Shown here: in pieces, positions 620-16,346 of the stretch
Layout: each line of letters begins with the position of its first letter
Numbering within the stretch: position 1 is the stretch's first letter
DNA from: Proteiniphilum sp. X52
Lineage (GTDB): Bacteria; Bacteroidota; Bacteroidia; Bacteroidales; Dysgonomonadaceae
NCBI RefSeq assembly: GCF_003712195.1
Contig: NZ_RDSD01000001.1
Coordinates: forward strand, 372,001-436,000
Direction: 5' to 3'
DNA length: 64,000 bases
Translations under genes and position numbers: made by a program
Notes under the pieces: model-generated
What the model was told of the DNA's origin: nothing
What the model saw: the letters and a program-made list of their open reading frames with translations, nothing else
The model's database searches: none

Positions 620-1546
620 ATGAAAGTACTTTTGGCAACGAGTAAGCCATTCGCTTTACCTGCTGTGCAGGGGATTCAGCATATTATAGAATGTGCGGGT
701 CATCAGTTCGCGAAGTTAGAGAAGTATGAGGAGGAAAGCCAGTTGCTTGATGCTGTGAAGGACGTGGATGCTTTGATCATACGAAGCGATATTGTCAACC
801 GGAATGTGATGAAAGCTGCCCCCAATCTGAAAATAATTGTCAGGGCCGGGGCAGGATACGATAATGTGGATTTGGAAGCCGCTACCGATTGCGGTATCTG
901 TGTAATGAACACTCCCGGACAGAATGCCAATGCTGTGGCTGAGCTTGTTTTCGGAATGATGATTTATGCCCAACGTAACCATTTCGATGGTTCGGTAGGA
1001 CGTGAGTTGACTCGCCGGCGGCTGGGTTTATATGCTTTCGGGAACGTGGCCAAGATGGTGGCCAAGATAGCGAGAGGCTTCGATATGCCGGTGTATGCTT
1101 TTTCACCTACCCTTACGCATGATGACTTGCGTAAAGAAGGGGAATACGGAGTGATTACCGCATATACTAATAAAGAATTGTTTCAGAATAGCGATTTTGT
1201 TTCTCTCCATATGCCTTTGCTGGAAGAAACACGTTACTGTGTGGATTATTCCCTCTTATCCCTGATGCCGCAAGATGGGCTTCTCATCAATACAGCACGG
1301 AAGGAGTTGGTGGTGGAAGACGATTTGATCCGTATCATGGAAGAACGCCCGGATTTCCAATATGTTACCGATATCAAACCCGATAAACATCAGGAATTTC
1401 TGGAAAAATTCCCGAGACGTTATTTTACTACACCAAAAAAATTGGGTGCGCAAACTATGGATGCCAATAAAAATGCGGGTTTAGCTGCCGCCAATCAGAT
1501 TGTGGCGTACTTCCAGAATGGAGATGAACGTTTCAGGGTAAATTGA
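620..1546 (+). CDS. serA: D-3-phosphoglycerate dehydrogenase-like 2-hydroxyacid dehydrogenase
   Basis: Probably oxidises 3-phosphoglycerate to 3-phosphohydroxypyruvate with NAD, the first step of serine synthesis; serC follows immediately. From MKVLLATSKPFA the protein is 308 residues, without the C-terminal ACT regulatory domain of longer SerA proteins. Visible parts are the substrate-domain motif RAGAGYDNVD, the nucleotide-binding segment GLYAFGNVAK, and the NTAR arginine motif. The usual catalytic histidine (PHxG) is absent: the equivalent stretch reads TPKKLGAQT. I believe Bacteroidales SerA proteins share this, but I cannot check it here. In-frame ATGs at 614 and 620 are both possible; 620 gives the normal N-terminus. 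A TAAATTTG -7 box sits at 509-516. Serine role rests largely on the neighbour. Confidence 0.88.
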   Translation: MKVLLATSKPFALPAVQGIQHIIECAGHQFAKLEKYEEESQLLDAVKDVDALIIRSDIVNRNVMKAAPNLKIIVRAGAGYDNVDLEAATDCGICVMNTPGQNANAVAELVFGMMIYAQRNHFDGSVGRELTRRRLGLYAFGNVAKMVAKIARGFDMPVYAFSPTLTHDDLRKEGEYGVITAYTNKELFQNSDFVSLHMPLLEETRYCVDYSLLSLMPQDGLLINTARKELVVEDDLIRIMEERPDFQYVTDIKPDKHQEFLEKFPRRYFTTPKKLGAQTMDANKNAGLAAANQIVAYFQNGDERFRVN

Positions 1547-1576
1547 GGAATTCTGAGAGTGGAAAAATGACCGGAG

Positions 1577-1637
1577 GGCTCAGTTCCCAGTTCCCAGTTC
1601 CCAGTTCTCAGTTCTCAGTTCTAAGTTCTAAATTCTA
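1577..1637. repeat. Degenerate heptamer repeat, CAGTTCC/CAGTTCT/AAGTTCT
   Basis: About eight head-to-tail units of a 7-base repeat (CAGTTCC, then CAGTTCT, then AAGTTCT) fill the gap between serA and serC. The units change gradually along the array, as expected of slippage followed by point mutation. The same family recurs at 51074-51123, upstream of pyrH. Confidence 0.85.
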
Positions 1638-1663
1638 ATCTCATAATTCAAAAATATAACCGT

Positions 1664-2743
1664 ATGCAGAAGTATAATTTTAATGCCGGTCCGTGCGTGC
1701 TTCCCCGGCCGGCAGTGGAGTCAGCCATTGAAGCGATACGCAATTTCGACAATACCGGAATAGGTATTCTGGAAATTTCGCATCGTACTCCGGGATGGGA
1801 GCGGATCATGAAAGAGACGGCAGATCTGTGGAAGGAATTGCTCAATATTCCTGATAATTATCGGGTGCTTTTGCTTGGCGGAGGTGCCAGCACCCAGTTT
1901 TTTATGGTTCCTGCCAACCTGATGAGGAAGAAAGCAGCTTATCTGCAAACCGGCACCTGGGCTAAAAAGGCCATCAAAGAAGCGAAATTTTACGGTGAGG
2001 TGGAAGTGGTGGCTTCATCAGAAGACAAAAACTACTCCTATATCCCCAAAGAATACACTATTCCGGCAGATGCCGATTATTTCCATATTACCACCAATAA
2101 TACTATTTTCGGTACTGAATTGCATGAAGATATCGATAGTCCGGTTCCATTAGTGGCCGATATGTCGTCCGATATTATGAGCCGTCCGATAGACGTGTCC
2201 AAATACGGTCTTATCTACGGTGGTGCGCAAAAAAACGTGGGCCCGGCAGGTGTGGCTTTCGTGATCGTTCGTGAAGATATTCTCGGTAAGATTGACCGCC
2301 CGCTGCAGACGATGGTTGATTACCGTACACATATCAGCGATTCCGACAAGAATCGTTCCATGTTCAATACCCCTCCGGTATTTCCTATTTTCGTGATGCA
2401 TGAAACACTGAAATGGGTGAAGGAACGGGGAGGTCTGGAAGTGATGCATAAGCTTAACAAGGAGAAAGCGCGGCTCCTCTATGATGAGATAGACCGTAAT
2501 AAACTTTTCGTGGGAACCGCTTCCCAAGAAGACCGTTCTATCATGAACGTCTGCTTTGTGATGAATGAAGAATACAAGGACCAAGAAGCCGCTTTCCTTC
2601 AGTTCGCCATTGAAAGGGGAATGGTGGGCATCAAAGGCCACCGTTCTGTGGGCGGATTCCGCGCTTCTATTTATAATGCCTGTCCCAAAGAGGCGGTGGA
2701 AGCGCTGACCCGCTGTATGCAAGACTTTGAGAAACAGCTCTGA
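1664..2743 (+). CDS. serC: Phosphoserine aminotransferase
   Basis: A PLP enzyme that converts 3-phosphohydroxypyruvate and glutamate to phosphoserine and 2-oxoglutarate, the second step of serine synthesis; it may also serve pyridoxal phosphate synthesis. The 359-residue protein has the family N-terminus [15 protein letters not shown], the phosphate-binding GGGASTQF, the Schiff-base lysine in [12 protein letters not shown] (about residue 191), and the C-terminal substrate motif [15 protein letters not shown]. Length is normal for the class. It lies 117 bases after serA in the same direction, separated by a heptamer repeat and no obvious terminator, so the two genes are probably cotranscribed. 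A strong terminator follows. Confidence 0.96.
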
Positions 2744-2766
2744 TTATCCATTGCAGTTGCTTGTCC

Positions 2767-2799
2767 AGAGCCGCCTCTATCACAGAGTCGGCTCTTTTT
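2767..2799 (+). terminator. Rho-independent terminator after serC
   Basis: AGAGCCG (2767-2773) pairs with CGGCTCT (2789-2795), with a further CTCT/AGAG pairing inside, followed by a run of T. It ends the serA-serC unit 24 bases past the serC stop. Confidence 0.85.
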
Positions 2800-2887
2800 A
2801 AAATTATTTAACCCGATTTTTTTTACGAAACGCATGGTTTGTTACGGAAAATTCGTAGATTTGCATTGTAAATATAGACAAAAAGAT

Positions 2888-3250
2888 ATGGAACGTTTGA
2901 CTCACCAGGAAGAAAATGTGATGTTGCATGTATGGCAACTCAACGAATGTGCAATTAAGGATGTGGTAGACAGGATGGAAGATCCGAAACCGCCGTATAC
3001 CACGGTGGCATCTATCTTCAACAATCTCGAGAATAAAGGATATCTTGCAAAGAGGCGGTTTGGAAACGTGAAGGTATTCAAGCCGGTAATATCGGAATCG
3101 GCCTATAAGAGACATTTTTTGTCAGGGGTCGTGCGGAGTTATTTTGATAACTCGTATAAAGAGTTGGTTTCTTTTTTTGCCAAAGAACAGAAAATTACTG
3201 CGGACGAACTGGAGGAGATTATTCGTCTGATTGAAAAGAAACGGAAGTAA
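2888..3250 (+). CDS. BlaI/MecI/CopY-family transcriptional repressor
   Basis: A 120-residue winged-helix repressor of the BlaI/MecI type. Such proteins bind operators as dimers and are inactivated when a partner M56 protease responds to a signal; that partner gene follows 29 bases downstream. The N-terminus (LTHQEENVMLHVWQ) and the recognition region (PPYTTVASIFNNLENKGYL, about residues 37-55) match the family. The start at 2888 gives the normal N-terminus; an earlier in-frame ATG at 2834 would add 18 untypical residues. A TAGATTTG -7 box at 2856-2863 supports transcription starting just upstream of 2888. In Bacteroidota such pairs are often not beta-lactamase regulators, and no beta-lactamase gene is nearby, so the signal is unknown. 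Confidence 0.9.
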   Translation: MERLTHQEENVMLHVWQLNECAIKDVVDRMEDPKPPYTTVASIFNNLENKGYLAKRRFGNVKVFKPVISESAYKRHFLSGVVRSYFDNSYKELVSFFAKEQKITADELEEIIRLIEKKRK

Positions 3251-3279
3251 GGATTTGTTTCAACCAAATTGCCCATCTC

Positions 3280-4974
3280 ATGTCACTGTTTTTTATATAC
3301 CTGATACAAGTAAATATCGCCCTTGCTTTATTTTATCTCTTGTATATTATTCTTCTTAAGAGGGATACCTTTCTGTGGCTACGGCGATTCTTCTTCCTCT
3401 CGGTGATTGTCTTTTCACTTCTCTATCCTTTTTTTACCATCCCGGGGCTAAGCGACCTATGGACTTCCCTTTTTCCCGCTTTTCAGGAAGCGACTGCCAC
3501 GGTGATGATTGGTGAACCAACTATGGCTATGATAGTGGAAGGAGAGGCTGTCGCACCTGTGGCGATCCCTTGGGAAAAAATCCTTTCCTGGTTTTATATA
3601 GCCGTCACGCTTGCGTTCGTGTTACGGTTCGTATTTCAATTGCTATCTATCCATGGTATATGGGCGAAAAGTGAAAAACAGATTATTTCGGGAATCCCGG
3701 TGTGCCAATTGAAGGAGAATATGACTCCTTTTTCGTTTTTCAGTTTGATTTTTATCCATACCGGAAAGCATTCTGAAACCGAACTCTCTCAAATTTTACT
3801 GCATGAACAAACACATGCGCGCCAATGGCATTCCGTCGATATCATGCTTGTCGAACTGGTGTGCCTGTTATCCTGGTGGAATCCGTTTGTATGGCTACTG
3901 AAGCGGGAAATGGCCATGAATTTGGAATACCTCGCTGATAAAGGCGTACTGAGTGAAGGGGTTGACAGCCGGGAATACCAATATCATCTTTTACGATTGA
4001 CTTATCATGAGACGGCAGTCCGGATAGCAAATAACTTTAATGTGTCACAATTAAAACAACGAATTATGATGATGAATAAAACCAAATCGCCTGCCTTGAA
4101 ACTGGCGAAATACCTGCTGATGCTTCCTTTGGCTTTTTTACTGGTCTTTGCCAATAGTTGTGTGAATCGGGACAAGAAAAGCGGAGAGGATGCGACCACG
4201 GAGAGTGTGGTTACCATACCGGGTTCCACGGATACGCCCGATCTTCTCCCTGATGAAGTGGGAGAAGACAACAGTGAGGTTTTTGTGGTTGTGGAAGAGC
4301 AACCCTCATTTCCCGGGGGAAATGAGGCGATGATGAAGTTCCTGGCTGATAATATCAAATATCCGAAAGAGGCACAGGAAAAAGGCACTGAAGGACGAGT
4401 GATCGTTAACTTTGTCGTCGAAAAAGATGGTCGCCTGAGCGATTTTAATGTTGTGCGCGGTGTGGATCCTTTATTGGACAGTGTAGCTTTGAGGGTATTG
4501 AAAAGCATGCCCAACTGGACTCCCGGTAAACAACGGGGAGAGGTGGTAAGGGTACGGTTTACGTTGCCTGTGGTTTTCAGGTTAAAGGGGAAAGACACCC
4601 AAGATTCCTCTTCCGTTTCAGCATCTTCTGCACCGGTTAAAGAGAGCGCTTCAGATGAAGTGTTTGTGGTGGTGGAGAAACAGCCCGAATTTCCTGGAGG
4701 GCAGGAAGCCCTGATGAAATACCTTTCCGACAATATCAAATATCCCATGGTAGCCCAGGAGAATGGAATCCAAGGACGCGTGATCGTGAATTTTGTGGTC
4801 GAGAAGGACGGCGGCCTGAGTGAGGTGCGGGTTGTCCGCGGTCAGGATCCTGTTCTCGATAAAGAGGCTGTAAGGGTTATAGAGGGTATGCCCAAATGGG
4901 AACCGGGTATGCAGAGGGGAAAGCGGGTGAGAGTACGTTATACGTTGCCGGTGGTCTTCAGTCTTCAGCACTGA
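3280..4974 (+). CDS. M56 (BlaR1/MecR1-like) membrane metallopeptidase with two C-terminal TonB domains
   Basis: Predicted inner-membrane sensor protease of 564 residues that would cleave or inactivate the BlaI-type repressor encoded just upstream. Hydrophobic segments lie near residues 4-25, 35-55, 105-125 and 275-290. The zinc motif HEQTH is at 175-179 between them, followed by the M56-typical segment WWNPFVWLLKREMAMNLEYLAD. Instead of a penicillin-binding sensor domain, the C-terminal half carries two copies of the TonB C-terminal domain (about 336-434 and 461-564), each with FPGG, NIKYP, GRVIVNFVVEKDG and a final LPVVF. The two copies are nearly identical and joined by a Ser-rich linker, which suggests internal duplication. 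Known family members pair M56 with TonB_C; what is transduced here is unknown. Confidence 0.88.
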   Translation: MSLFFIYLIQVNIALALFYLLYIILLKRDTFLWLRRFFFLSVIVFSLLYPFFTIPGLSDLWTSLFPAFQEATATVMIGEPTMAMIVEGEAVAPVAIPWEKILSWFYIAVTLAFVLRFVFQLLSIHGIWAKSEKQIISGIPVCQLKENMTPFSFFSLIFIHTGKHSETELSQILLHEQTHARQWHSVDIMLVELVCLLSWWNPFVWLLKREMAMNLEYLADKGVLSEGVDSREYQYHLLRLTYHETAVRIANNFNVSQLKQRIMMMNKTKSPALKLAKYLLMLPLAFLLVFANSCVNRDKKSGEDATTESVVTIPGSTDTPDLLPDEVGEDNSEVFVVVEEQPSFPGGNEAMMKFLADNIKYPKEAQEKGTEGRVIVNFVVEKDGRLSDFNVVRGVDPLLDSVALRVLKSMPNWTPGKQRGEVVRVRFTLPVVFRLKGKDTQDSSSVSASSAPVKESASDEVFVVVEKQPEFPGGQEALMKYLSDNIKYPMVAQENGIQGRVIVNFVVEKDGGLSEVRVVRGQDPVLDKEAVRVIEGMPKWEPGMQRGKRVRVRYTLPVVFSLQH

Positions 4975-5078
4975 TCAATATTCCGTTGAATAAATGAGGA
5001 GTATATTACGAAAACATGTGGTATAAGGAATGTCTCCGGCAAGGGAGGTTTCTTCTGAGAGTGCAAACACTTTCAATC

Positions 5079-6395
5079 ATGCCCAGATCCATACTTTTCA
5101 GTCTGTTGTTCCTTCATTCGCTGTGGTTATTATCTCAGTCGAATGAATTGCGGGATGCCTTGCGTAACTATCAATATAATGAAGTATTGATGTTGTTGGA
5201 GTCGGAACCATCCACCCGGGAGAATTTGCAACTAAAGGCCCATTGTTATGAAAAGTTGTATAGTTACACTTCCGCACTGAATATTTACAAACTTTTGGTG
5301 GATGAATATCCTGATGATGCCAATCTGGTGATTTCCATGGCGGAATGCGCATCACAGGCGGGGAACTCACCCTTGTCGTTACAATGCTGGATAGTGGCCG
5401 ACAGTTTATCACCGGAAAACCAATTTATTCAGACCCAAAAAGCAATGGCTCTTTACAGGAATGATAATTGGAAACAAGCCATTGAACAGGCGAAAGTGGT
5501 CTTTGAAACAGATTCAGTGCCTCATCTTCTTCGTATGGTGGGTGATGCCTATTTATACAGCTCCGAAGCTGATTCCGCCATCTGGTACTATTGCCAGGCC
5601 ATCGCGAAAAATCCGGCGGATTATCTGGCTGTAAATAAGCTGGGGAATATCTATCTGGGGGCGAAATTTTATGATGCGGCGATCAACCTGACGCGGACAT
5701 ATCTCGAAAATATCAACCCTGGCCAGCCATTAATCGGCCAATTGAACGGAATGGCACACTACTCGGCGGGCAACTATAGGGAAGCGACCCAACGGTTAAA
5801 GGAAAATATCATTCTGGGCGACAGTTCGTACACCACCTGTTATTATCTGGGTATGAGCTTGTATGCCTCCAAATTGTATTATGAAGCAGTTAACTGGCTG
5901 GAAAAAGCATATAATCAGAATAGTACTGATATCAATCTGCTCTATTACTATGGAACCGCTCTTTCCAGGACATATGACCGAAAGAGGGGGATAGAGGTTC
6001 TGACGGAAGGTGTGGAGATGATCGAAAAAATGAACGGGATGTTGTTTGATTTTGACCGATCCTTTGCTGATGCCTATATGCGGTCGAAAAATTACAACAA
6101 AGCCATTCAGTATTTCCAGTCGGCCTATAAGCGGAACCCTGATACGCATTCTCTGCTTTACAATATGGGTTACTGCTATGAGTCGGTGAAAGATTATAAA
6201 AATGCAGTCACCTATTATGAACGTTTTCTAAAGACTGCCCCCGAAGGTTGGGATGCGGACCAAGGGAACCTGGTAGATGGTGGAACCGGAAGTCCAAGTT
6301 CTACCGACCGCCTTTACAGGTATGTGGCCCAACATCTTGAAAGACTCAAAGAGGAGTTGTTTTTCCAGTCACCAGGAAATAGGGGTAAAGAGTAG
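5079..6395 (+). CDS. Exported tetratricopeptide-repeat protein
   Basis: A 438-residue protein with an N-terminal signal peptide (MPRSILFSLLFLHSLWLLSQS) followed by at least eight TPR-like helical repeats to near the end, for example YCQAIAKNPADYLAVNKLG, YYLGMSLYASKLYYEAVNWL and LLYNMGYCYESVKDYKNAV. TPR proteins are protein-interaction scaffolds; nothing here gives an enzymatic role. The ATG at 5079 is chosen because it opens the signal peptide directly; an upstream in-frame ATG at 5016 would bury it. It lies 104 bases after the M56/TonB gene in the same direction with no terminator seen between, so cotranscription with the BlaI/M56 pair is plausible and a periplasmic partnership with the TonB domains is possible but unproven. 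Confidence 0.85.
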   Translation: MPRSILFSLLFLHSLWLLSQSNELRDALRNYQYNEVLMLLESEPSTRENLQLKAHCYEKLYSYTSALNIYKLLVDEYPDDANLVISMAECASQAGNSPLSLQCWIVADSLSPENQFIQTQKAMALYRNDNWKQAIEQAKVVFETDSVPHLLRMVGDAYLYSSEADSAIWYYCQAIAKNPADYLAVNKLGNIYLGAKFYDAAINLTRTYLENINPGQPLIGQLNGMAHYSAGNYREATQRLKENIILGDSSYTTCYYLGMSLYASKLYYEAVNWLEKAYNQNSTDINLLYYYGTALSRTYDRKRGIEVLTEGVEMIEKMNGMLFDFDRSFADAYMRSKNYNKAIQYFQSAYKRNPDTHSLLYNMGYCYESVKDYKNAVTYYERFLKTAPEGWDADQGNLVDGGTGSPSSTDRLYRYVAQHLERLKEELFFQSPGNRGKE

Positions 6396-6426
6396 AGGGC
6401 CAAAGCCCGGGATTCAGTGAGATTAT

Positions 6427-6603
6427 TTATTTTATCATGCCCCCCTCCCCTTGCGGGGCTTGCTCGTGTTCGTTGAAAAAAGAATTATCTAAATTTTCAT
6501 GAATAGTCGTATATCCCATTTTATTTCTGTTGTTAAATAAACAGACAGAGATGGATATTATACCAATTAATATTGCGAAAAAACAGAAAATTTTATTTTT
6601 CAT
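6427..6603 (-). CDS. Small exported peptide (58 residues) beside a beta-propeller lipoprotein
   Basis: An uninterrupted 58-codon frame starting MKNKIFCFFAILIGIISISV, a typical short basic N-terminus and hydrophobic signal segment, followed by a polar tail with a Gly-rich end (QAPQGEGGMIK). It lies 149 bases downstream of the beta-propeller lipoprotein gene on the same strand, and the layout resembles the NVEALA-type peptide on the other side of that gene (signal, short spacer, acidic/Gly-rich tail). A clear NVEALA core is not present, so I do not assign it to that family. The last codons contain a CCCC/GGGG inverted repeat (around 6447-6458). Coding status rests on the signal-like start and context only. 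Confidence 0.55.
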   Translation of the reverse strand: MKNKIFCFFAILIGIISISVCLFNNRNKMGYTTIHENLDNSFFNEHEQAPQGEGGMIK

Positions 6604-6752
6604 ATGACTATAATATTTATTTTCAATGGTGTCATATGGAACTCGCTTTAGTCATGATCTTGTGTGATAATGATTATCATGCTCGTTTCATATATTATAA
6701 CTGGATTCAGTCCTTCAGAGAATTTCTTTTGTGATTTGAAAGAATATTCTTT

Positions 6753-7958
6753 CTACTTAATTTCATACCACAAAATAAAACCATTAAAACGATCACTGTC
6801 TTTTATGTTTTTCAAACCGTTTAATAAGGATTCATCCTTAATAAGTTTCGATGATGTTATCATAGTCTCCCAATCCCTCGGTCCGATATAATAAAGAACA
6901 GATTTATCTTCTTTAATACCATAATTTACAGGGAGTTGATTAATATTGACACGATTAAAAAATAAATCTTCATAAATAGATTCTATTTTTTTTGCAGACG
7001 AATTCCCTTTATCGTATAAGATATTATGGGGTTTGCTCCCTTTGTTCAATCTAAAGAAGATAAAATCGTCCGTATCCATAAAATGATGAATATCAAAATA
7101 TTTGTTCATTCCAAGAATTTTTATCATATCCATAGGATTGTTATTGACGTCTAACCCGGATAAATCGTTCGGGATAAAAAAATTCTTTTCATATCCACTC
7201 AAAACTATATATGGTGTTGGCCGGTTGTTTGAATATTCATATATTGTATCCATAAACAAGTGGGATAATAAGGGTTTATTATCCCATTTCAATAGAAAGG
7301 GTCCGTTATAATTTGTCAGAGCATTATCCCAAGACTTATTACTAAGGGTCGGAATTATAAAGTTATTATCTTCCCCATCCACAGGGAGTATTCTAAATAA
7401 ATATTCTGTATCCTTTTTACTTGGATCGAATTGAGTCAGATATATAGTGTCATTCTCATAAAAAATATATGAGCACATCGGCATATTCGAAGACAGGGAT
7501 ATCGATGATTGGAATATTCCATCTTTAATATTGTATTTGTTGATCTTTTGTGTCTGAATATCTGAGATATAGATACAATTGTTTTTTTTGTCAACAGACA
7601 TATCAAAAGCCCTTAACATCTCGCCGGGGCCTGCCCCTCTTGATCCAATCTTTTTCTTGTAATTCCCCTTTTTGTCAAAAATAAAAACAGCACTGGATAG
7701 TTTATCCAAAATAAATAGTTCTTCATCATGAACCAATATCTTACTTATTTCTCCAATAAGTATTTCATCACTTAATTGAATGACATCAATATTATTGAAG
7801 ATCTGGGATAAGAGTAATGTGTCTTCTTTTTTTATTTCATCTAGATTTATTTCAATATACTCCGAACTAATAGGAACTGAATTGTGATTTTTTTTACATG
7901 ATGCAATTGTAACCAGAACCAATACCAATATAGAAAATGAACAATATTTTTTTTTCAT
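6753..7958 (-). CDS. 6-bladed beta-propeller lipoprotein (BF3164-like)
   Basis: A 401-residue predicted lipoprotein: signal peptide MKKKYCSFSILVLVLVTIASC ends in a lipobox (IASC) with Cys21. The rest is beta-rich with propeller-type repeats, such as LFILDKLSSAVFIFDKKGNY, the following GSRGAGPGEML, and CIYISDIQTQKINKY. The phrase GxGPGE after a charged strand is characteristic of the 6-bladed beta-propeller lipoproteins that are abundant in gut and environmental Bacteroidales. The family's function is unknown; genes of this type very often sit next to NVEALA peptides, as here. The gene begins 33 bases after the NVEALA-type stop codon, beyond a strong stem-loop. Base composition is clearly more AT-rich than flanking genes, which may indicate transfer. 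Confidence 0.85.
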   Translation of the reverse strand: MKKKYCSFSILVLVLVTIASCKKNHNSVPISSEYIEINLDEIKKEDTLLLSQIFNNIDVIQLSDEILIGEISKILVHDEELFILDKLSSAVFIFDKKGNYKKKIGSRGAGPGEMLRAFDMSVDKKNNCIYISDIQTQKINKYNIKDGIFQSSISLSSNMPMCSYIFYENDTIYLTQFDPSKKDTEYLFRILPVDGEDNNFIIPTLSNKSWDNALTNYNGPFLLKWDNKPLLSHLFMDTIYEYSNNRPTPYIVLSGYEKNFFIPNDLSGLDVNNNPMDMIKILGMNKYFDIHHFMDTDDFIFFRLNKGSKPHNILYDKGNSSAKKIESIYEDLFFNRVNINQLPVNYGIKEDKSVLYYIGPRDWETMITSSKLIKDESLLNGLKNIKDSDRFNGFILWYEIK

Positions 7959-7974
7959 AAGTTAGTTGTATATC

Positions 7975-8003
7975 AAGAGGGCTTGTCAATGTCAAGCCCT
8001 CTT
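7975..8003 (-). promoter_or_regulatory. Intercistronic stem-loop between NVEALA-type gene and beta-propeller gene
   Basis: An 11-base perfect inverted repeat (AAGAGGGCTTG at 7975-7985 with CAAGCCCTCTT at 7993-8003, loop of 7) overlaps the NVEALA-type stop codon. On the minus strand no T-run follows, so a full intrinsic terminator is unlikely. It could instead protect the upstream message end or attenuate transcription, which would make the peptide more abundant than the lipoprotein; that is inference. Confidence 0.7.
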
Positions 8004-8252
8004 TGTGATAGATTTATATGTATAATAACCATTATAAAGAGTAGTTTTGTATGAATCTACAAGATATCCTTGACATCCTTCATTCCCACCCCCGGAGCTA
8101 CCTCCACCCCCGGAGGTAGTTGACTGCGCCAATACTTCCACATGCAATTTATTCTCTACTACTCCGTAATCATCCAATGCATGCCTCAGGTTCAGTGTAA
8201 GGGCAAATAGTAAAGTTGCTATGCCCAAAATTGTTAAATAGTTCTTTTTCAT
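7992..8252 (-). CDS. NVEALA-type exported small peptide
   Basis: An 86-residue protein with a signal-like N-terminus (MKKNYLTILGIATLLFALTL), a short spacer, a variant of the NVEALA motif (HVEVLA, residues 37-42), a Gly/Ser-rich linker (residues 44-57) and a Cys-containing tail ending SITKRA. NVEALA-family peptides in Bacteroidales are 70-90 residues, have this order of parts and commonly accompany 6-bladed beta-propeller lipoproteins; their role is not established. The motif here is degenerate, so assignment rests on layout plus context. The gene is first in the minus-strand cluster, about 70 bases below a small CCCGTT/AACGGG stem-loop (8319-8334). Confidence 0.7.
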   Translation of the reverse strand: MKKNYLTILGIATLLFALTLNLRHALDDYGVVENKLHVEVLAQSTTSGGGGSSGGGNEGCQGYLVDSYKTTLYNGYYTYKSITKRA

Positions 8253-8861
8253 TTTATTAATTGTTTAGTTATTAATAATATGGTTAGAATCAATAAATTG
8301 CTTAATAATTACTTTCATCCCGTTTGATAACGGGATTGTCGGAAGATCGACTTTTCATAAAAAGCAAAATCTGTTTTCATGCGGTTATCTTTTTTTGATT
8401 GTTGATTCATCACTCATTATTAGGATAAATATATGATAATCATCCTGTTGTTTCAGTAACTTCTTAATTCTTGTTTCAACGTATCCGTATTATACCACGT
8501 GTACGTGCGTTGGCAGATAGGATAGGGTAATATACTACCACCGCAGACACTCCCAGTATTATGAAATACAAGTAGCGGAAAGAAAAGATAGATGGCCTTT
8601 GTGTTTCCATAAGGAAAAGAATTATGTTTTCATTCTATCGGACCAGCTCGTTTTTGGTTATTACCTATTCTGGTACTATTCGTCTCTCATTGAAATTGTG
8701 ATAAACACTTTTATATCAGTATTTTACTGATAAGATGCAAATATGGGTATTATTTTAAAAAATCAATCACAAATCCCGATAATCCTACAGTGCAGAATTT
8801 CAGGAGTTTTAATAATAACCCCATCATCACTTAAAGGATGGCCACGGTGGCAGATTTTTCA
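8253..8861. other. Gap of about 600 bases upstream of the NVEALA-type gene
   Basis: AT-rich sequence with no gene I can support firmly. It holds a perfect 6-base stem-loop (CCCGTTTGATAACGGG, 8319-8334) and a possible 44-codon minus-strand reading frame (8476-8610). The right part (8611-8861) follows the end of the penicillin-binding protein gene and shows no clear terminator. Confidence 0.5.
8476..8610 (-). CDS. Possible 44-residue membrane peptide
   Basis: ATG at 8610 opens a 44-codon frame beginning METQRPSIFSFRYLYF with a single hydrophobic stretch (IILGVSAVVVYYPIL) and a basic tail. It points the same way as the NVEALA-type cluster, 220 bases upstream of it. A single-pass membrane peptide is possible, but no homologue is recognised, no clear promoter is seen, and an open frame this short occurs by chance. 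It could also be a remnant of a larger gene's start. Confidence 0.25.
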   Translation of the reverse strand: METQRPSIFSFRYLYFIILGVSAVVVYYPILSANARTRGIIRIR

Positions 8862-11258
8862 TTAGTTGAATATGTCGTCAATCCCCTGGCTTTCGATTAC
8901 CGGATCGTTTCGGCGGTAGAAATCGGGAGAATATCGCTGCCTATCATGGCAGGGATCAAAAGCGGCAGGGATATCGAAGACGCCGTCATCGGTGTAATTC
9001 AATTCCTTATCGGAATAGACCTTCTGATAGAAAATACCGTGAATGGGGAGTGCCATACTGGCTCCCTGGCCATAACCCATCTGGTCGAAATGGATAGAGG
9101 GTTCTTCACCTCCCACCCAACAACCTGCTACCAGGCGGGGCGTAAACGACATGAACCAACCATCGGAGTTGTTATTGGTAGTGCCGGTCTTGGCCCCCAT
9201 TTGTCCTTTCAGGTTATAGATGCGGCGTAACCGGCCACCCGTTCCGCCGTCCACGACTCCTTTCAGCATATCAAGCATCTTATAGGAAGTCGATTCACTG
9301 AAGATCTCCTTCATCCGGGGGACGAATGAAGCGACTTCATTTCCATAGGCGTCTTCAATTCGGGTTACCAAAACCGGTTCCACACGGATACCCCTATGGA
9401 TGAAAGCTGAATAAGCGCCCACCATCTCATATACGGAAGCGTCATTTGGTCCTAATGCCAGGGAGACTACCGGGTCGGCAGGTGTCTTTAACCCAAAGGA
9501 TTGGAGCATCCTGGCAAAGGCATAGGGCGAGAATTGGCTCATCAGCCAGGCGGTTACCCAGTTGTCGGAGTTTTGCAACCCCCATTTTATAGATACAAAA
9601 TCACCGCTTGCCGGACGTGTATTTCTCGGTTCCCATGGAATGCCGTTCTCATCCATCAATCTTACCGGCCCGTGGATCATTCCGTCGCAAGGGCTCATCC
9701 CTTCCTCCATTGCCAGCGTGTAGAGATAGGGTTTGATGGTAGAACCGATCTGGCGTTTACCGGTGGCACTGTCATATTTAAAGAATTTGAAGTCAGGGCC
9801 TCCCACATAGGCTTTCACATGTCCCGTCAAGGGATCCATTGCCATGAAGCCGGTCCGCAGGAAATTTTTGTGGTAACGGATGGAATCCCAGGGCGTCATG
9901 AGCGTATCCACTTCCCGGTGTTCCCAGGAAAAGACCTTCATTTCCACCGGTTTCTCCTTGAAGTTACGGATAATCTCCTCTTCGTTGAGGCCGCCTTGTT
10001 TAAGGACTCGGTAACGCTCGCTCTGTCTCACGGACGCCATCATCAGGTTGTCCGCTCTGTCGCTTACCTCACGGGAGTAAGGGGCATAGGCCTTTCCTTT
10101 CTTTTCACGGAAAAACTGACTCTGGAGATAACCTCCCAGGTGCTCTTTCACGGCTGCCTCCGCATGGCGCTGCATCCGGGAATCGAGGGTAGAGTAGATT
10201 TTTAATCCGTCGGTATAAATATTATAGTGAGAACCGTCAGGTTTCTTGTTTTTGTTACACCAGCCGAAAAGCGGGTCTTCTATCCATGCCACCGAATCTT
10301 CCCTGAACTGCTGTCCTTGCCACGATGCGTAATTCTTCCTCTCCGGCTTTCTGGCCATCATTATCCTTGCCAGGTGCTGCCGGTAATAAGGTGCGATAAT
10401 ATCGACGTGGTCCGAACGGTTGAAATCGAGCCGAATGGGAAGCTGTTTCAAAGAGTCAGCTTCCTGTTTAGTGAGGTGGCCGGCTTTCTGCATCTGGGTG
10501 ATCACCACATTCCGGCGGTTCCGGGTTACTTCCGGACGACGTTGGGGATTATAGAGGGAAGAGTTTTTAAGCATCCCAATCAACATGGCCGCTTCTTCAA
10601 TACCCAGCTCTTTGGGTGTTTTGTTGAAATAGGTACGGGCGGCAGATTCAATTCCTACCGCGTTGTAGTTGAAATCATACTTGTTCAGATAGAGGTTAAT
10701 GATTTCGTCTTTTGAGTAAAAGCGTTCCAATTTGGCTGCAATTACCCATTCCACCGGTTTCTGGAAAACACGTTCTATTTTATTATTCGCCCTTGGTGAA
10801 TAGAGTAGTTTCGCCAACTGCTGGGTGATGGTACTACCGCCTCCACTCTCTTCCCTGCTGAGGATAAGTGTCTTGAATATGACCCTTCCCAGACCGATGA
10901 TATCGATGCCGGAATGAGAATAAAAGCGTATATCTTCCGTGGCGACCAGCGCGTTGATGAGATGGGGAGATAGATCGGAGTAATCCACGAATATGCGGTT
11001 ATCATCACTTTGGGAGTAGGTGAAAAGCAATTCATTATCGGTGGAGATTACCTGAGAGGCATATTTGTCGATCGGGTTTTCCAGTTGTTCAATTTTGGGA
11101 ATATAGCCTATGAGTCCCGCGGAAATGAGCAGGAAAAAAAGGATAACGCCTCCCGCCATGATACCGAAAATGCTCCATATGGCTTTGATGATGCCATTCT
11201 TTTGTGATATATCCTTTGTTTTCGGGCTTTTCTTCCGACCCTTTGTTTGTTTACCCAT
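8862..11258 (-). CDS. mrcA: Class A penicillin-binding protein (PBP1A family)
   Basis: Bifunctional peptidoglycan synthase of 798 residues, anchored in the inner membrane by one segment (about 25-53). The glycosyltransferase (GT51) domain shows the catalytic glutamate in ATEDIRFYSHSGID (E108) and the donor-site motif GGGSTITQQLAK (139-150). The transpeptidase domain shows the acylated serine in GSTIK (S506), the SDN motif in NSDNW, and KTGT (K690). All key residues are intact and the length is normal. It stands alone: no neighbour is functionally linked. Candidate -7 boxes TACTTTTG lie at 11314-11307 and 11387-11380 on the minus strand, the nearer one about 48 bases above the start. The symbol follows the usual naming; pbpF or ponA would be equally fair. 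Confidence 0.95.
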   Translation of the reverse strand: MGKQTKGRKKSPKTKDISQKNGIIKAIWSIFGIMAGGVILFFLLISAGLIGYIPKIEQLENPIDKYASQVISTDNELLFTYSQSDDNRIFVDYSDLSPHLINALVATEDIRFYSHSGIDIIGLGRVIFKTLILSREESGGGSTITQQLAKLLYSPRANNKIERVFQKPVEWVIAAKLERFYSKDEIINLYLNKYDFNYNAVGIESAARTYFNKTPKELGIEEAAMLIGMLKNSSLYNPQRRPEVTRNRRNVVITQMQKAGHLTKQEADSLKQLPIRLDFNRSDHVDIIAPYYRQHLARIMMARKPERKNYASWQGQQFREDSVAWIEDPLFGWCNKNKKPDGSHYNIYTDGLKIYSTLDSRMQRHAEAAVKEHLGGYLQSQFFREKKGKAYAPYSREVSDRADNLMMASVRQSERYRVLKQGGLNEEEIIRNFKEKPVEMKVFSWEHREVDTLMTPWDSIRYHKNFLRTGFMAMDPLTGHVKAYVGGPDFKFFKYDSATGKRQIGSTIKPYLYTLAMEEGMSPCDGMIHGPVRLMDENGIPWEPRNTRPASGDFVSIKWGLQNSDNWVTAWLMSQFSPYAFARMLQSFGLKTPADPVVSLALGPNDASVYEMVGAYSAFIHRGIRVEPVLVTRIEDAYGNEVASFVPRMKEIFSESTSYKMLDMLKGVVDGGTGGRLRRIYNLKGQMGAKTGTTNNNSDGWFMSFTPRLVAGCWVGGEEPSIHFDQMGYGQGASMALPIHGIFYQKVYSDKELNYTDDGVFDIPAAFDPCHDRQRYSPDFYRRNDPVIESQGIDDIFN

Positions 11259-13355: not shown

Positions 13356-16346
13356 CTACTTATTAAGTCTCTGATTGATCATTTGTTGGATATCGGCCTC
13401 ATCTCCTTTATAGTTGGATTTCAGACTTTCCAGGTATTGGCGTGCCTGGAATTCATCGCCTTTGGCAAGATAGGTGTCCGACAGGATAATAAGTGCCCGC
13501 GCCATCCAGTACTGGTGTGGGGTGCCTTTTCGCATGAACTCTTTGACCTGAGCTTCGGCACGATCATATGACTTCCACCGGTAATAGGTGTCGGCAAGGA
13601 TGAACTGTGCTTCCGCCCCGTAGATACTGCGGGTATCATTGGCCACGAACTGGAAATCGGCCATGGCGTTATCCGTTTCATTGACTTGCTGGTACGCTTT
13701 TCCTCTCAAATATCTGGCTTCTGTGATCGTTTCGGGTGAGAGATTATTATTGGAGAGCAAGTCGGTAGCTGCTCTGGCTGCTTCGTGATAACTGCCCAGT
13801 TGCGATTGTGACCGCACAACTCCCATTTGTCCCAACTGCCGGTTGGTGGCATTACGGGCTGAATGAGCCAATCGGGAATAATCGGCAAGCGCCTGGCGGA
13901 AGTTTCCGTTTGCATATTCAGTCCGCGCGGTATAGATCAACGCGTTGTCGAGGAATTTTAGATTGCCGGCGTCGATCACCTTCCGGAAATGCGATAGTGC
14001 CAAATCCTGCTTTTTCCTTTCGTCGGCAATCACTCCGAGATAATAATGGGCATCGCTGTGATATGCTCCATTGGGATAAGATTGGATATATTTTGTCATG
14101 GCCGCCTCGGCATCCGCCCGTTCGCCACGCATATATACACTTTCGGCTGCCAGATAGGTAAGCGAATCCTGTCGTGATGGGGTGATACGCATACCTCCCG
14201 GCAAAGAGTTGGCATATTTTACATAGCTGTCGATATCGTTCATGTCACGATAGACTGTTTCTAACGAGATTAGCGCATTACGCGCATCGTCTGAACCGGG
14301 AAAATGGGCAATCACGTTCTTGTATGCAGCGATACTCTGTTGATAATTACCGATATTGTAGTACAATTGCCCTAATTGGACCCCTCCCTGACTGGCGAGG
14401 GGACTTTTCGGGAAATCATTCACCAGTCGTTGCAGTACCGCGATGGCTTCATTCTCTCTGTTGAGCATCGTGAGTGCGCGACTTTTCTCATAAAGGGCAT
14501 CATCAAAATATTGTGAATTGGGATAGGTGCGCATCAGATTGTCCAATGCCGTGATCTTTCCCTGGTAGTTGCGTTGCAGTCCCATCACAAATGCCCGTTG
14601 ATAGGCGGCATAATCGGCAGAGGATGGGTTGATGTCGGTTGCCTGTGCGTAATAGCGTTCTGCCTCGCTAAAACTGCGGTTAAAGTAGTAGCTGTCGCCT
14701 ATGCGGTTCAGTGCGTCGGCGTATTCCGGCCGATTCCTGGTTTTTTCCGCCGCGATGTATTGCTGAAAAGCATTGACGGCCTGATTATATTGCTGTTGTT
14801 TGAAGAGCGCATACCCCAGATTGTACCATCCCAGAGAGTGATTCTCGTCTGCAGGGGCGGCGTTTTGGGTGAATTGCCGGAAATCATTGGCTGCATTGCT
14901 GTAGTTCCCCATCCGGTAATATGCTTCACCCCGCCAGAAATAGGCGTTATTGCGGGCTTTGGCATCCTGATTGCCCAGACTGATGCTATTGTTAAAATGC
15001 TGTACTGCCTCGTTCATGTTACCGTTGATAAAGGCCTGGGCTCCCAACTGGAAAAGGACCATCTGTTTCGCCTCCAGTATCCGGCGTCCGGGGTTACTGA
15101 TACGGTTGATCGCGTTCAGGGCAGCATTGTAATCTTTGGTAGTCAGGAAAGTCTCAGCCAAAATGTCGTTTACCTGGTCTTTATAGGGCGAATTGGGAAA
15201 TTCCCTGAGAAAGTTCTCGAACAGGGTGATGGATTCGCTGAAGACGGAGAAATTGGTCTCGTGGGCCAGTAAAGCGTAGTTGAACAGGGCCGTTTCACGT
15301 ACCTGTGGGTTGAAATTGCCGCGGGACGCCGCCTCAAAAGCCATTTGGGCCGCTTGTTTCTGATTCAGCCGTAAATAAGTTTGCCCCAGTTGCAATTGTG
15401 CGTTCTGAGTGAGTTCATCGGCTTCTCCCACCGCCTGCTGGAACATCTCTACTGCCCTGCTGTAATTGCCTGTTTCGAAATAGGATAATCCCAGGAAGTA
15501 AGCATCCCCTCTAAGCGGCTTGTCCACGCCGGCAAGGTACTTCTCGTAATGGGGTACTGCCCTGGAGGCTTGTCCCAGCCTGTAATAACCGTTCCCCAGA
15601 ACTCTGTATGCCTCGGTAAGATGTTCACTCGAGGGATATCTGCTTACGAAAGCCTCCGACAACCTGACGGCTTCCTCGACCTTGCCATCGAAGAAAGTAG
15701 CCTGAGCTTTATAAAATGCTACTTCCTCACTGTATTCGGGATGATTTTGTAATCGTTCAAAACGGCGCAACGCCTCCGCATAGTTTCCGTTGGAATATTC
15801 GATGTAACCCAGATAAAAAGTGGCCGCATCCCGGTATTGGCTACTGTTTTGTGAGAGTAGTCCGAAAAGACGGCTGGCATCTTGTTTATTTCCCAATTGC
15901 AATTGGGTATAAGCCGAACGGAAACTGTAATCTTCCTGTTCCGACAGGGTGAGATAATCGAGGTCCGCTTGATTGAACCGCTCTCCTGCTGCATGCCACT
16001 CTTTCTTATCGAAATAGTATGAGCCGATCAGGAAATTGACCTGATGGCGGTGGATGGTTTCAGGATGTGTGTCGAGAAACGCTTCCAGGATATTCCCACT
16101 GTTATTGCTGCCGCGATAGAATGAGGACAGAGCCCTCATGTAGGCGGCCTCCTCTTTCAAATAAGCATCGTCGCTTCCGGCAACGAATTTTCCCAGCAAT
16201 TGTTCCGCGCCTTCCCAATTCCCTTCAAGGAACATCTCTTTCCCACGGTTGAACAGTTGCTCGGGCTGAGCATGGTATACCGTTTTTTGCGCTATGGAAA
16301 CCTGTGCTATAAAGGCAAGGGTAAACAGTAAAATGATTTTCTTCAT
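13356..16346 (-). CDS. Large periplasmic tetratricopeptide-repeat protein (996 residues)
   Basis: Signal peptide MKKIILLFTLAFIAQVSIAQ is followed by a continuous array of TPR and Sel1/YbgF-like helical repeats across nearly the whole 996 residues, for example LFNRGKEMFLEGNWEGAEQL, YFLGLSYFETGNYSRAVEMF, and AYYRMGNYSNAANDFRQF. Such long TPR proteins act as scaffolds. The barrel gene directly downstream suggests a complex at the outer membrane. I recall this TPR-barrel order from other Bacteroidales, but no specific function is established to my knowledge. The start is chosen for the signal peptide. The gene is immediately preceded (8 bases) on the same strand by the broken toxin remnant, which has no evident connection. 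Confidence 0.8.
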   Translation of the reverse strand: MKKIILLFTLAFIAQVSIAQKTVYHAQPEQLFNRGKEMFLEGNWEGAEQLLGKFVAGSDDAYLKEEAAYMRALSSFYRGSNNSGNILEAFLDTHPETIHRHQVNFLIGSYYFDKKEWHAAGERFNQADLDYLTLSEQEDYSFRSAYTQLQLGNKQDASRLFGLLSQNSSQYRDAATFYLGYIEYSNGNYAEALRRFERLQNHPEYSEEVAFYKAQATFFDGKVEEAVRLSEAFVSRYPSSEHLTEAYRVLGNGYYRLGQASRAVPHYEKYLAGVDKPLRGDAYFLGLSYFETGNYSRAVEMFQQAVGEADELTQNAQLQLGQTYLRLNQKQAAQMAFEAASRGNFNPQVRETALFNYALLAHETNFSVFSESITLFENFLREFPNSPYKDQVNDILAETFLTTKDYNAALNAINRISNPGRRILEAKQMVLFQLGAQAFINGNMNEAVQHFNNSISLGNQDAKARNNAYFWRGEAYYRMGNYSNAANDFRQFTQNAAPADENHSLGWYNLGYALFKQQQYNQAVNAFQQYIAAEKTRNRPEYADALNRIGDSYYFNRSFSEAERYYAQATDINPSSADYAAYQRAFVMGLQRNYQGKITALDNLMRTYPNSQYFDDALYEKSRALTMLNRENEAIAVLQRLVNDFPKSPLASQGGVQLGQLYYNIGNYQQSIAAYKNVIAHFPGSDDARNALISLETVYRDMNDIDSYVKYANSLPGGMRITPSRQDSLTYLAAESVYMRGERADAEAAMTKYIQSYPNGAYHSDAHYYLGVIADERKKQDLALSHFRKVIDAGNLKFLDNALIYTARTEYANGNFRQALADYSRLAHSARNATNRQLGQMGVVRSQSQLGSYHEAARAATDLLSNNNLSPETITEARYLRGKAYQQVNETDNAMADFQFVANDTRSIYGAEAQFILADTYYRWKSYDRAEAQVKEFMRKGTPHQYWMARALIILSDTYLAKGDEFQARQYLESLKSNYKGDEADIQQMINQRLNK

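Follow-up and report, generated by a model that had tools for sequence, protein, structure and literature searches.

Three open reading frames (ORFs) lie in a row on the minus strand of the Proteiniphilum sp. X52 genome, encoding 58 (positions 6427-6603), 401 (6753-7958) and 86 residues (7992-8252) in the window, that is, in the whole stretch of 64,000 nucleotides analysed here (372001-436000 of contig C14, in a genome of 4.43 Mb designated G000). The original prediction, made from the letters of the window, described these ORFs as a compact, previously undescribed module of three genes: a degenerate NVEALA-type peptide, a lipidated beta-propeller that would bind it, and a second small exported peptide. 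The question raised by the locus is whether the ORFs are complete genes that work together or the remains of something larger, and to which kind of system they would belong. The best explanation, which we regard as probable, is that the stretch 6427-8830 is a degraded relic, probably horizontally exchanged, of a locus in which an exported peptide with the motif HVEVLA stood beside a propeller lipoprotein, and that intact systems of this kind would operate as matched pairs of peptide and propeller.

The small genes and the propeller of the window locus

The main comparator was another genome of the same genus (G001), in which a contig of 3,317 bp (L025) shows 99.2% DNA identity to positions 6686-8020 of the window (1,336 bp). 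In that genome the gene located downstream of the propeller encodes a protein of 191 residues with a CxxC motif (L025:589-1164), and residues 1-44 of the 58-residue ORF (6427-6603, minus strand) are identical to the start of this protein at 43 of 44 positions. The last 14 codons have no match in the 191-residue gene; at the DNA level, identity to G001 is 96.5% at 6472-6613 and the match ends beyond this point. By this comparison, the ORF is the truncated 5' end of the CxxC gene, with 44 native and 14 unrelated codons. The idea of a gene for a 58-residue signal-bearing peptide fails, given that its homologue beside the propeller of G001 encodes 191 residues, and the gene, which had been expected to be conserved next to the propeller in relatives, is not conserved as such. 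The 191-residue protein and the four relatives that were checked (in the loci L067, L052, L142 and L140) all carry CxxC; the similarity is weak to the neighbours in L067, L052 and L142, and also to the DUF1573 protein of L140 (E 2e-05 in a single comparison). Membership of this third part in the DUF1573/redoxin family was considered on the basis of the CxxC motif and the weak similarity, but the protein has no match to our own profile of that family (profile R); that it is thioredoxin-like may be taken as a lead only.

The 86-residue ORF (7992-8252, minus strand) has a counterpart of 133 residues upstream of the propeller in G001. Relative to this counterpart, the window gene carries a 125-bp deletion at 8019/8020, its Gly/Ser linker is 36 bp shorter, and divergence is greater in the leader, where 73 of 93 bp are identical. 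The leader and the shortened linker are retained, and most of the C-terminal cysteine core is gone: a single cysteine is left, compared with four in G001, and hence the count is not even. In agreement with the definition of a leader that we adopted (a hydrophobic stretch and the motif [NH]VE[AV]LA), HVEVLA is present at residues 37-42, a motif that is invariant in three HVEVLA peptides, and the propeller gene lies directly downstream on the same strand. The ORF and the motif described originally are therefore real, but the peptide is not complete, and its assignment as a degenerate NVEALA-type peptide was not confirmed by Pfam, where no match to NVEALA (PF14055; cut-off 27 bits) was obtained at E<=1. 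Neither Pfam nor NCBIfam gave a credible match for either of the two small ORFs.

The 401-residue ORF (6753-7958, minus strand) is intact, and encodes a six-bladed beta-propeller of the DUF5128 family that is probably a lipoprotein. It matches the Pfam entry '6-bladed beta-propeller' (DUF5128, PF17170) with 109.6 bits, for a gathering cut-off of 22.9; its AlphaFold model is mainly beta (predicted local distance difference test, pLDDT, 73.3; predicted template modelling score, pTM, 0.76), and the best Foldseek match of this model is PDB 4raa (BF0058 from Bacteroides fragilis, E 1.3e-17). The N-terminus is a signal-like hydrophobic stretch ending at Cys21, whose equivalent is invariant across 36 aligned propellers. 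These results bear out the propeller fold that had been proposed, while the proposed lipidation at Cys21 is a prediction; the BF3164-like type that the original prediction had named was not confirmed, since Pfam TolB_like (BF3164-like, PF15869) gave no match at E<=1. Among 39 genomes of the genus, its own included, an orthologue was found only in G001 (98% identity), and the remaining matches at E<=1e-20 are 25-29% identical. The G000 and G001 copies differ by 7 nonsynonymous and 3 synonymous codons (nonsynonymous divergence, dN, 0.0072; synonymous divergence, dS, 0.0130), which gives no sign of strong constraint, although so small a number of differences does not prove neutrality. Of the genes in the locus, the propeller alone could yield a full-length product, and the peptide half of the pair appears to be gone.

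The damage is not confined to the small genes. On the minus strand, at 8327-8610, a search with the PMT-like membrane glycosyltransferase of locus L141 (tblastn) revealed a remnant in which residues 1-32 and 404-456 of 467 are recognisable and the interior is deleted; an ORF of 44 residues (8476-8610) falls within it. A full-length copy of 467 residues exists elsewhere in the same genome (L032:8951-10354), and its match to PMT_2 (19.6 bits) is below the Pfam cut-off of 26.1. Further on, at 8757-8830 (minus strand), the first part of a GtrA-like gene remains, with about 370 bp missing relative to G001; the blastn alignment of L110 and L111 breaks at 8757, where G001 has an open GtrA ORF. This remnant gave no protein-level match in the window and is visible only at the DNA level. 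The disturbed stretch thus runs on to approximately 8830. The G001 locus is itself decaying: the PMT gene there has an internal deletion, and the 191-residue gene is followed by the shortened remnant of an S26 signal peptidase.

The locus is flanked by a PBP1A gene (8862-11258, minus strand) and a TPR gene (5016-6395, plus strand). Its low GC content, noted originally, was confirmed: 31.7% for the module and 45.9% for the whole window, with a single one of 311 windows of the same size being equally low, and that one overlapping the module; the 86-residue ORF by itself is milder than the other two (39.5%). Rfam and tRNA scans found nothing at the module. A PBP1A match was obtained in 33 genomes, and for 30 of these we read which genes lie downstream of it. 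In two of them (G004 and G038) a TPR gene lies some 80-110 bp past the PBP1A stop codon and the module is absent; these look like empty sites. In seven more of the 30 loci a TPR match directly follows PBP1A but is weaker (36-47%), and the other loci show different neighbours or none within 1.5 kb. The DNA identity of G000 and G001 is 91.5% in the PBP1A flank and 99.2% in the propeller stretch, while a paralogous locus on contig C19 is 99.5% identical over 12 kb (L032, G000:C19:36000-48000; L141, G001:C19:34000-50000), which suggests that both loci were exchanged recently between these genomes. The ends of L025 (1-90 and 3228-3317) are an identical 90 bp from the PMT-like gene, which suggests tandem or multicopy units at the locus. 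Close to the PBP1A gene, at 2834-4974, the window also contains a repressor of the BlaI type (Penicillinase_R) and, after it, an M56 peptidase that resembles BlaR1 and has two TonB_C stretches; this is a possible cell-wall sensing set. Elsewhere in the window, 13356-16346 encodes a TPR protein of 996 residues with a sub-threshold match to PorW/SprE of the type IX secretion system (118.3 bits; cut-off 250).

Could the three ORFs nevertheless be a functional module, with the short forms as real genes for two exported peptides? The ORFs are open, ordered and on one strand, and the propeller is full length; on the other side, the 58-residue ORF is a fragment of a longer gene, the 86-residue peptide keeps one of four cysteines where four other HVEVLA cores have even counts, the adjoining PMT and GtrA genes are also broken, and the propeller shows little sign of purifying selection. 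We consider this reading very improbable, and a functional three-part module was rejected because both small genes are truncated. All three minus-strand ORFs exist as described, with only the propeller as an intact gene; two of the three parts of the supposed module are truncated, and one of these two, the 58-residue ORF, is not a gene of its own in G001, the one relative with the orthologous propeller. Another explanation would place the damage in the assembly, with a locus that is intact or tandem in the organism and repeats collapsed into a chimera from short reads. Related units in G001 do lie on two short contigs (5,867 and 3,317 bp, the latter with the identical 90-bp ends), a gap of 100 N occurs in G001 close to the same site, and the leader region of the window gene is mosaic within otherwise near-identical DNA. 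However, the window lies inside a contig of 596,701 bp, the several separate lesions in different genes would each require a collapse of its own, and G001 has lesions of its own. An artefact of this type is unlikely, if less so than the functional module, and we favour a relic produced by decay.

Fuller HVEVLA loci and the NVEALA family

Related loci with full-length peptides were found in three genomes of two genera. A profile search for HVEVLA peptides gave six matches in three of 101 genomes of the family. One is the window copy and a second lies in G000:C19; G001 has three, and the last belongs to a different genus (G076). The propeller follows the peptide directly in four of the six loci (window, L025, L140 and L142), and after one intervening protease gene in the other two (L032 and L141). 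In L140 the order is PMT-like gene, HVEVLA peptide, propeller and a DUF1573 lipoprotein with CxxC. In L141, and in L032 as far as it was fetched, a PMT-like gene and the peptide are followed by an aspartyl protease, the propeller, an Alg9-like glycosyltransferase and UbiA, and then by an FAD oxidoreductase, SDR, HAD, S26 and GtrA. In L142 an HVEVLA-like peptide is followed by the propeller, small thiol-type proteins, and a PMT-like and an Alg9-like protein; both glycosyltransferase labels in L142 were assigned by sequence resemblance, and the PMT-like protein had no Pfam match. The cores of these peptides contain 4 (L025), 2 (L032), 6 (L140) and 4 (L142) cysteines, and in all six HVEVLA peptides a Gln directly follows the motif (HVEVLAQS in the window, for example). 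In L141, GtrA, the S26 signal peptidase, HAD, SDR, the FAD oxidoreductase, UbiA and the Alg9-like gene stand in a row (1417-7599); we take this set to resemble a polyprenyl-phosphate sugar pathway, presumably of the arabinose type, next to an exported peptide.

HVEVLA and NVEALA peptides have in common a short length, a hydrophobic N-terminus, a motif x-V-E-x-L-A some 35-40 residues in, a downstream propeller gene and, in the fuller HVEVLA relatives, even cysteine numbers. In contrast, the HVEVLA motif itself, the long Gly/Ser linker, the linkage to PMT-like glycosyltransferases and the absence of a Pfam match at E<=1 set the HVEVLA peptides apart. HVEVLA systems are probably divergent relatives of the NVEALA peptide/propeller systems.

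Of 123 genomes searched, all from one family of the order, 51 have NVEALA peptides, and a single genome has as many as 23 matches. In the genome of the window there are ten matches over the cut-off, all outside the window locus; nine are followed by a propeller on the same strand and the remaining one is at a contig end. Some NVEALA genes of this genome are interrupted or truncated (L029 10887-11075 and 13818-13973; L033 11299-11502; L034 1246-1368; L035 7971-8132), and beside at least four of these the propeller ORF is open. A profile scan of genome contigs yielded 67 NVEALA loci (set 1), for the most part Bacteroidales and chiefly from Bacteroides, Phocaeicola, Parabacteroides, Proteiniphilum and Petrimonas, and some from Paludibacter, Prevotellaceae and Parapedobacter. 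These loci are not independent, as several come from the same genome and L045 and L046 share the same peptide. Two of the contigs (L046 and L059) come from metagenome bins labelled as Firmicutes and Clostridia; at least L046 is probably mis-binned, since its peptide is the same as that of the Bacteroidales contig L045.

In 62 of the 67 loci the peptide gene is followed by an ORF of at least 100 residues, on the same strand in 60, and these 60 downstream genes include 40 TolB_like and 24 DUF5128 matches (the counts overlap); BF3164-like propellers, to which the window propeller has no match, are accordingly the commonest partners of NVEALA peptides. With our own profiles, which were built from clusters of the test loci themselves, a propeller was found in 62 of 67 loci, as the next gene in 54. 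The control DNA contained none; it comprised 340 kb, taken as 17 stretches of 20 kb from two genomes that belong to the same genus as the window. Other families recur in the 67 loci: a DUF1573/redoxin lipoprotein (34), a regulator (25), transglutaminase (17), S26 (14) and Wzy_C (9); the same families account for one, one, zero, zero and zero genes in the control. Among the S26 proteins, the motifs SMEPT and KR are present in the two that were fully read, and KR in 11 of 15 cluster members. Of the regulators, 18 of 27 match Trans_reg_C, and 21 of 26 have at least two predicted membrane segments, the first two approximately 150-200 residues apart. The association of NVEALA peptides with propellers is strong and widespread; the adjacency in Bacteroidales that the original prediction had mentioned is borne out, in 54 of 67 NVEALA loci and in all six HVEVLA loci, two of these with the intervening protease.

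The peptides were counted in 61 of the 67 loci; three lack a start codon under the rule that we applied (L053, L062 and L103), one lacks the motif (L067) and two run off the contig. Cysteines are concentrated in the cores (238 in 2,631 residues, versus 7 in 2,254 residues of leader), and 52 of the 61 cores have an even, non-zero number, eight an odd number and one none; after a 40% identity filter the figures are 35 of 40 even and five odd (binomial 7e-7). In a second set (set 2: 40 stretches, partly sharing genomes with set 1), 107 of 118 distinct cores are even, ten odd and one without cysteine. Disulfide bonding of the cores is the natural reading of these even counts. In addition, the cores are acidic, with a mean net charge of -1.85 and only one of 149 at +3 or more, and the leader ends in an invariant N-V-E-A-L-A (alignment A1).

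Matched cores and propellers

The strongest evidence that peptide and propeller may work together is that core types and propeller types co-segregate. A core similarity of 0.28 was picked as threshold after viewing set 1, and was then used unchanged on set 2. Among the 53 peptide-propeller pairs of set 1 (identical duplicate L046 removed), all seven comparisons with similar cores have similar propellers as well (0.16-0.56), a level reached by 1.3% of the 1,378 comparisons; these seven are not independent, and three of them form a triangle. None of 20,000 permutations did as well for propellers, and the leaders were unremarkable (2,277 of 20,000). Where the locus had a further propeller to compare, its similarity was at background level in three of four cases. 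In set 2, 117 of 124 candidates have a same-strand ORF within 800 bp, 102 of these being propellers, and 89 pairs from 29 genomes were kept after removing cores identical to set 1, repeated cores and propellers shorter than 250 residues. Between genomes, propellers are similar in 100 of 127 comparisons with a core similarity of at least 0.28, in 45 of 148 at 0.2-0.28, in 17 of 398 at 0.15-0.2 and in 9 of 3,084 below 0.15; leader similarity is 0.309 in the top bin and 0.311 in the bottom bin. A single core family of 21 members supplies 94 of the 127 comparisons (68 matched), and the other families supply 33, of which 32 are matched. Counted by core family, propellers are matched in 12 of 13. 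More than one genome is represented in 11 of the families, 10 of which are matched, and some families are near-identical copies in related species. These figures point to matched peptide-propeller pairs, and they give strong support to the partnership of peptide and propeller that had been proposed originally, in so far as binding may be deduced from co-segregation.

Taxonomic relatedness as the sole cause of the matching was rejected because the leaders are not more alike. A closer competitor is plain co-inheritance, in which peptide and propeller would be mere neighbours in a transferred block. It can draw on the R genes, which are mildly more alike in pairs with similar cores (0.58 versus 0.47), and on the set 1 pair L092/L100, where the similarity extends to the R gene and to the other propeller; some co-inheritance of whole loci seems to exist. 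Yet leader similarity is unrelated to propeller similarity, although one ORF encodes both leader and core, and the other propellers of the locus mostly remain at background level, so that we consider co-inheritance an improbable account of the matching. Together with the R genes, several results weigh against matched pairs or against the window locus as a relic of one. Propellers are unlike in 27 of the 127 comparisons with similar cores, 26 of them in the 21-member family, and one of the 13 core families is unmatched. Over all pairs of set 1, a Mantel-type partial rank correlation is weak (0.097, a value reached in 13 of 2,000 permutations), since the cores of most pairs are unrelated and the signal resides in those with similar ones. 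S26 was not found in 53 of the 67 loci and the regulator not in 42, with many loci terminating at contig ends. Gln follows ALA in only 39 of 149 NVEALA cores, and 132 of the 149 share a Glu as their third residue; the cleavage site may therefore lie elsewhere. The HVEVLA and NVEALA profiles align weakly (hhalign probability 17%, E 0.0014), the window peptide lacks a Pfam NVEALA match and the 191-residue protein a match to profile R, and the dN/dS estimate has only 10 codon changes behind it.

Proposed working of intact systems and their relation to known ones

Besides the propeller lipoprotein of the DUF5128 family, the fuller loci related to the relic encode an exported peptide whose leader has the HVEVLA motif, thiol proteins with CxxC and a glycosyltransferase of the PMT-like type. 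One of them, the C19 locus (G000 and G001), also has a gene for an S26 signal peptidase and a set of polyprenyl-sugar genes. In such a system, the Sec machinery would insert the peptide through its N-terminal hydrophobic stretch, and the dedicated S26 peptidase, where present, would cut after A-L-A or V-L-A. A-x-A and V-x-A fit signal peptidase I. The cut would release an acidic core of about 30-80 residues, presumably disulfide-bridged in view of its even number of cysteines. For Bacteroidetes, a Gln is expected after the signal peptidase I cut (the Q-rule, taken from parts of PMC5837995 and PMC10653852). The linked thioredoxin-like/DUF1573 lipoproteins may handle the disulfides, and the adjacent propeller lipoprotein, which co-segregates with the core, would be its specific binding partner. 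In part of the loci, a linked membrane-spanning regulator, predicted to have a periplasmic domain and a cytoplasmic winged helix, may couple the system to transcription. In the HVEVLA loci, the glycosyltransferases could, by conjecture, decorate the Gly/Ser linker.

The acidic cores and the regulators would be more in keeping with signalling than with killing, immunity being a serious rival. In the latter case, the intact systems would serve contact-independent antagonism, with the cores as antibacterial peptides and the adjacent propeller as cognate immunity protein. Toxin-immunity systems show the same traits: cores that vary while the leader is shared, a matched partner gene, more than one pair in a genome, and frequent decay. 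The extra propellers could be orphan immunity genes. Nevertheless, the acidic cores are unlike typical cationic antimicrobial peptides, and 25 of the 67 loci have a linked regulator for which a periplasmic domain is predicted; antagonism is a possible but less likely role, and communication is the one that we prefer.

The closest known systems share these features in part. The structure 4raa, of the same family and fold as the window propeller, is described merely as a putative exported protein, and hence there is no function to transfer. The model also resembles the BtuG propellers (8ptf, 8ptd and 8blw in Foldseek), which are Bacteroides lipoproteins and, through the capture of vitamin B12, a precedent for a surface propeller that captures a ligand; going by the titles of the records, they differ in that they bind cobalamin together with BtuB. 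No TonB-dependent receptor appears among the neighbour families listed for the NVEALA loci (25 of 35 families in one of the listings). Bacteroidetocins are made with double-glycine leader peptides (GG, or GA/GS, at the junction of leader and core), and they are not known to have a propeller beside them. The NVEALA leader ends, instead, in ALA, and neither N-V-E-A-L-A nor the HVEVLAQS of the window shows such a junction. Bacteroidetocins, which are class IIa-like bacteriocins, are likewise small exported peptides of Bacteroidetes (PMC6671954, in excerpt). In Bacteroides thetaiotaomicron, BT0662 (O-antigen ligase family) and BT0664 (six-bladed beta-propeller), which resemble the Wzy_C-propeller linkage of the NVEALA loci, are included in a table of the iron-dependent stimulon (PMC10434189, as seen in that table).

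In 5.39 million open-access full texts, a body of literature that leaves out preprints and most subscription papers, NVEALA is nowhere mentioned; PF14055 occurs only in five papers that, by title, deal with the unrelated subjects of malaria parasites (four) or enzyme prediction (one), and BF3164 only in a 2007 work on signature proteins, as far as its record indicates. The titles and opening lines of abstracts among the matches listed contain no description of the pairing of peptide and propeller. The claim of an undescribed system agrees with this, within that literature and among those matches.

We give about an even chance to a joint proposal in which the NVEALA/HVEVLA peptides and their adjacent propellers constitute an undescribed and combinatorially diversified recognition system of Bacteroidales and their kin. 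In it, a generic leader would export many disulfide-bridged cores, and every core would have a propeller of its own to read it; a linked peptidase of the S26 type, for maturation, and transcription regulators that span the membrane would take part, in a Gram-negative form of lock-and-key peptide communication or self/non-self recognition; and the HVEVLA branch would add glycosyltransferases that may decorate the Gly/Ser linker. The window locus alone, as a relic, is of modest interest; the family behind it is a promising and apparently unstudied matched-pair system. The analysis suggests that the NVEALA family is more than a loose set of small proteins, and it looks like one half of such a system. 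If the pairs bind, they would offer a testable route to how Bacteroidales sense or fight their kin, and a role for many uncharacterised propeller lipoproteins.

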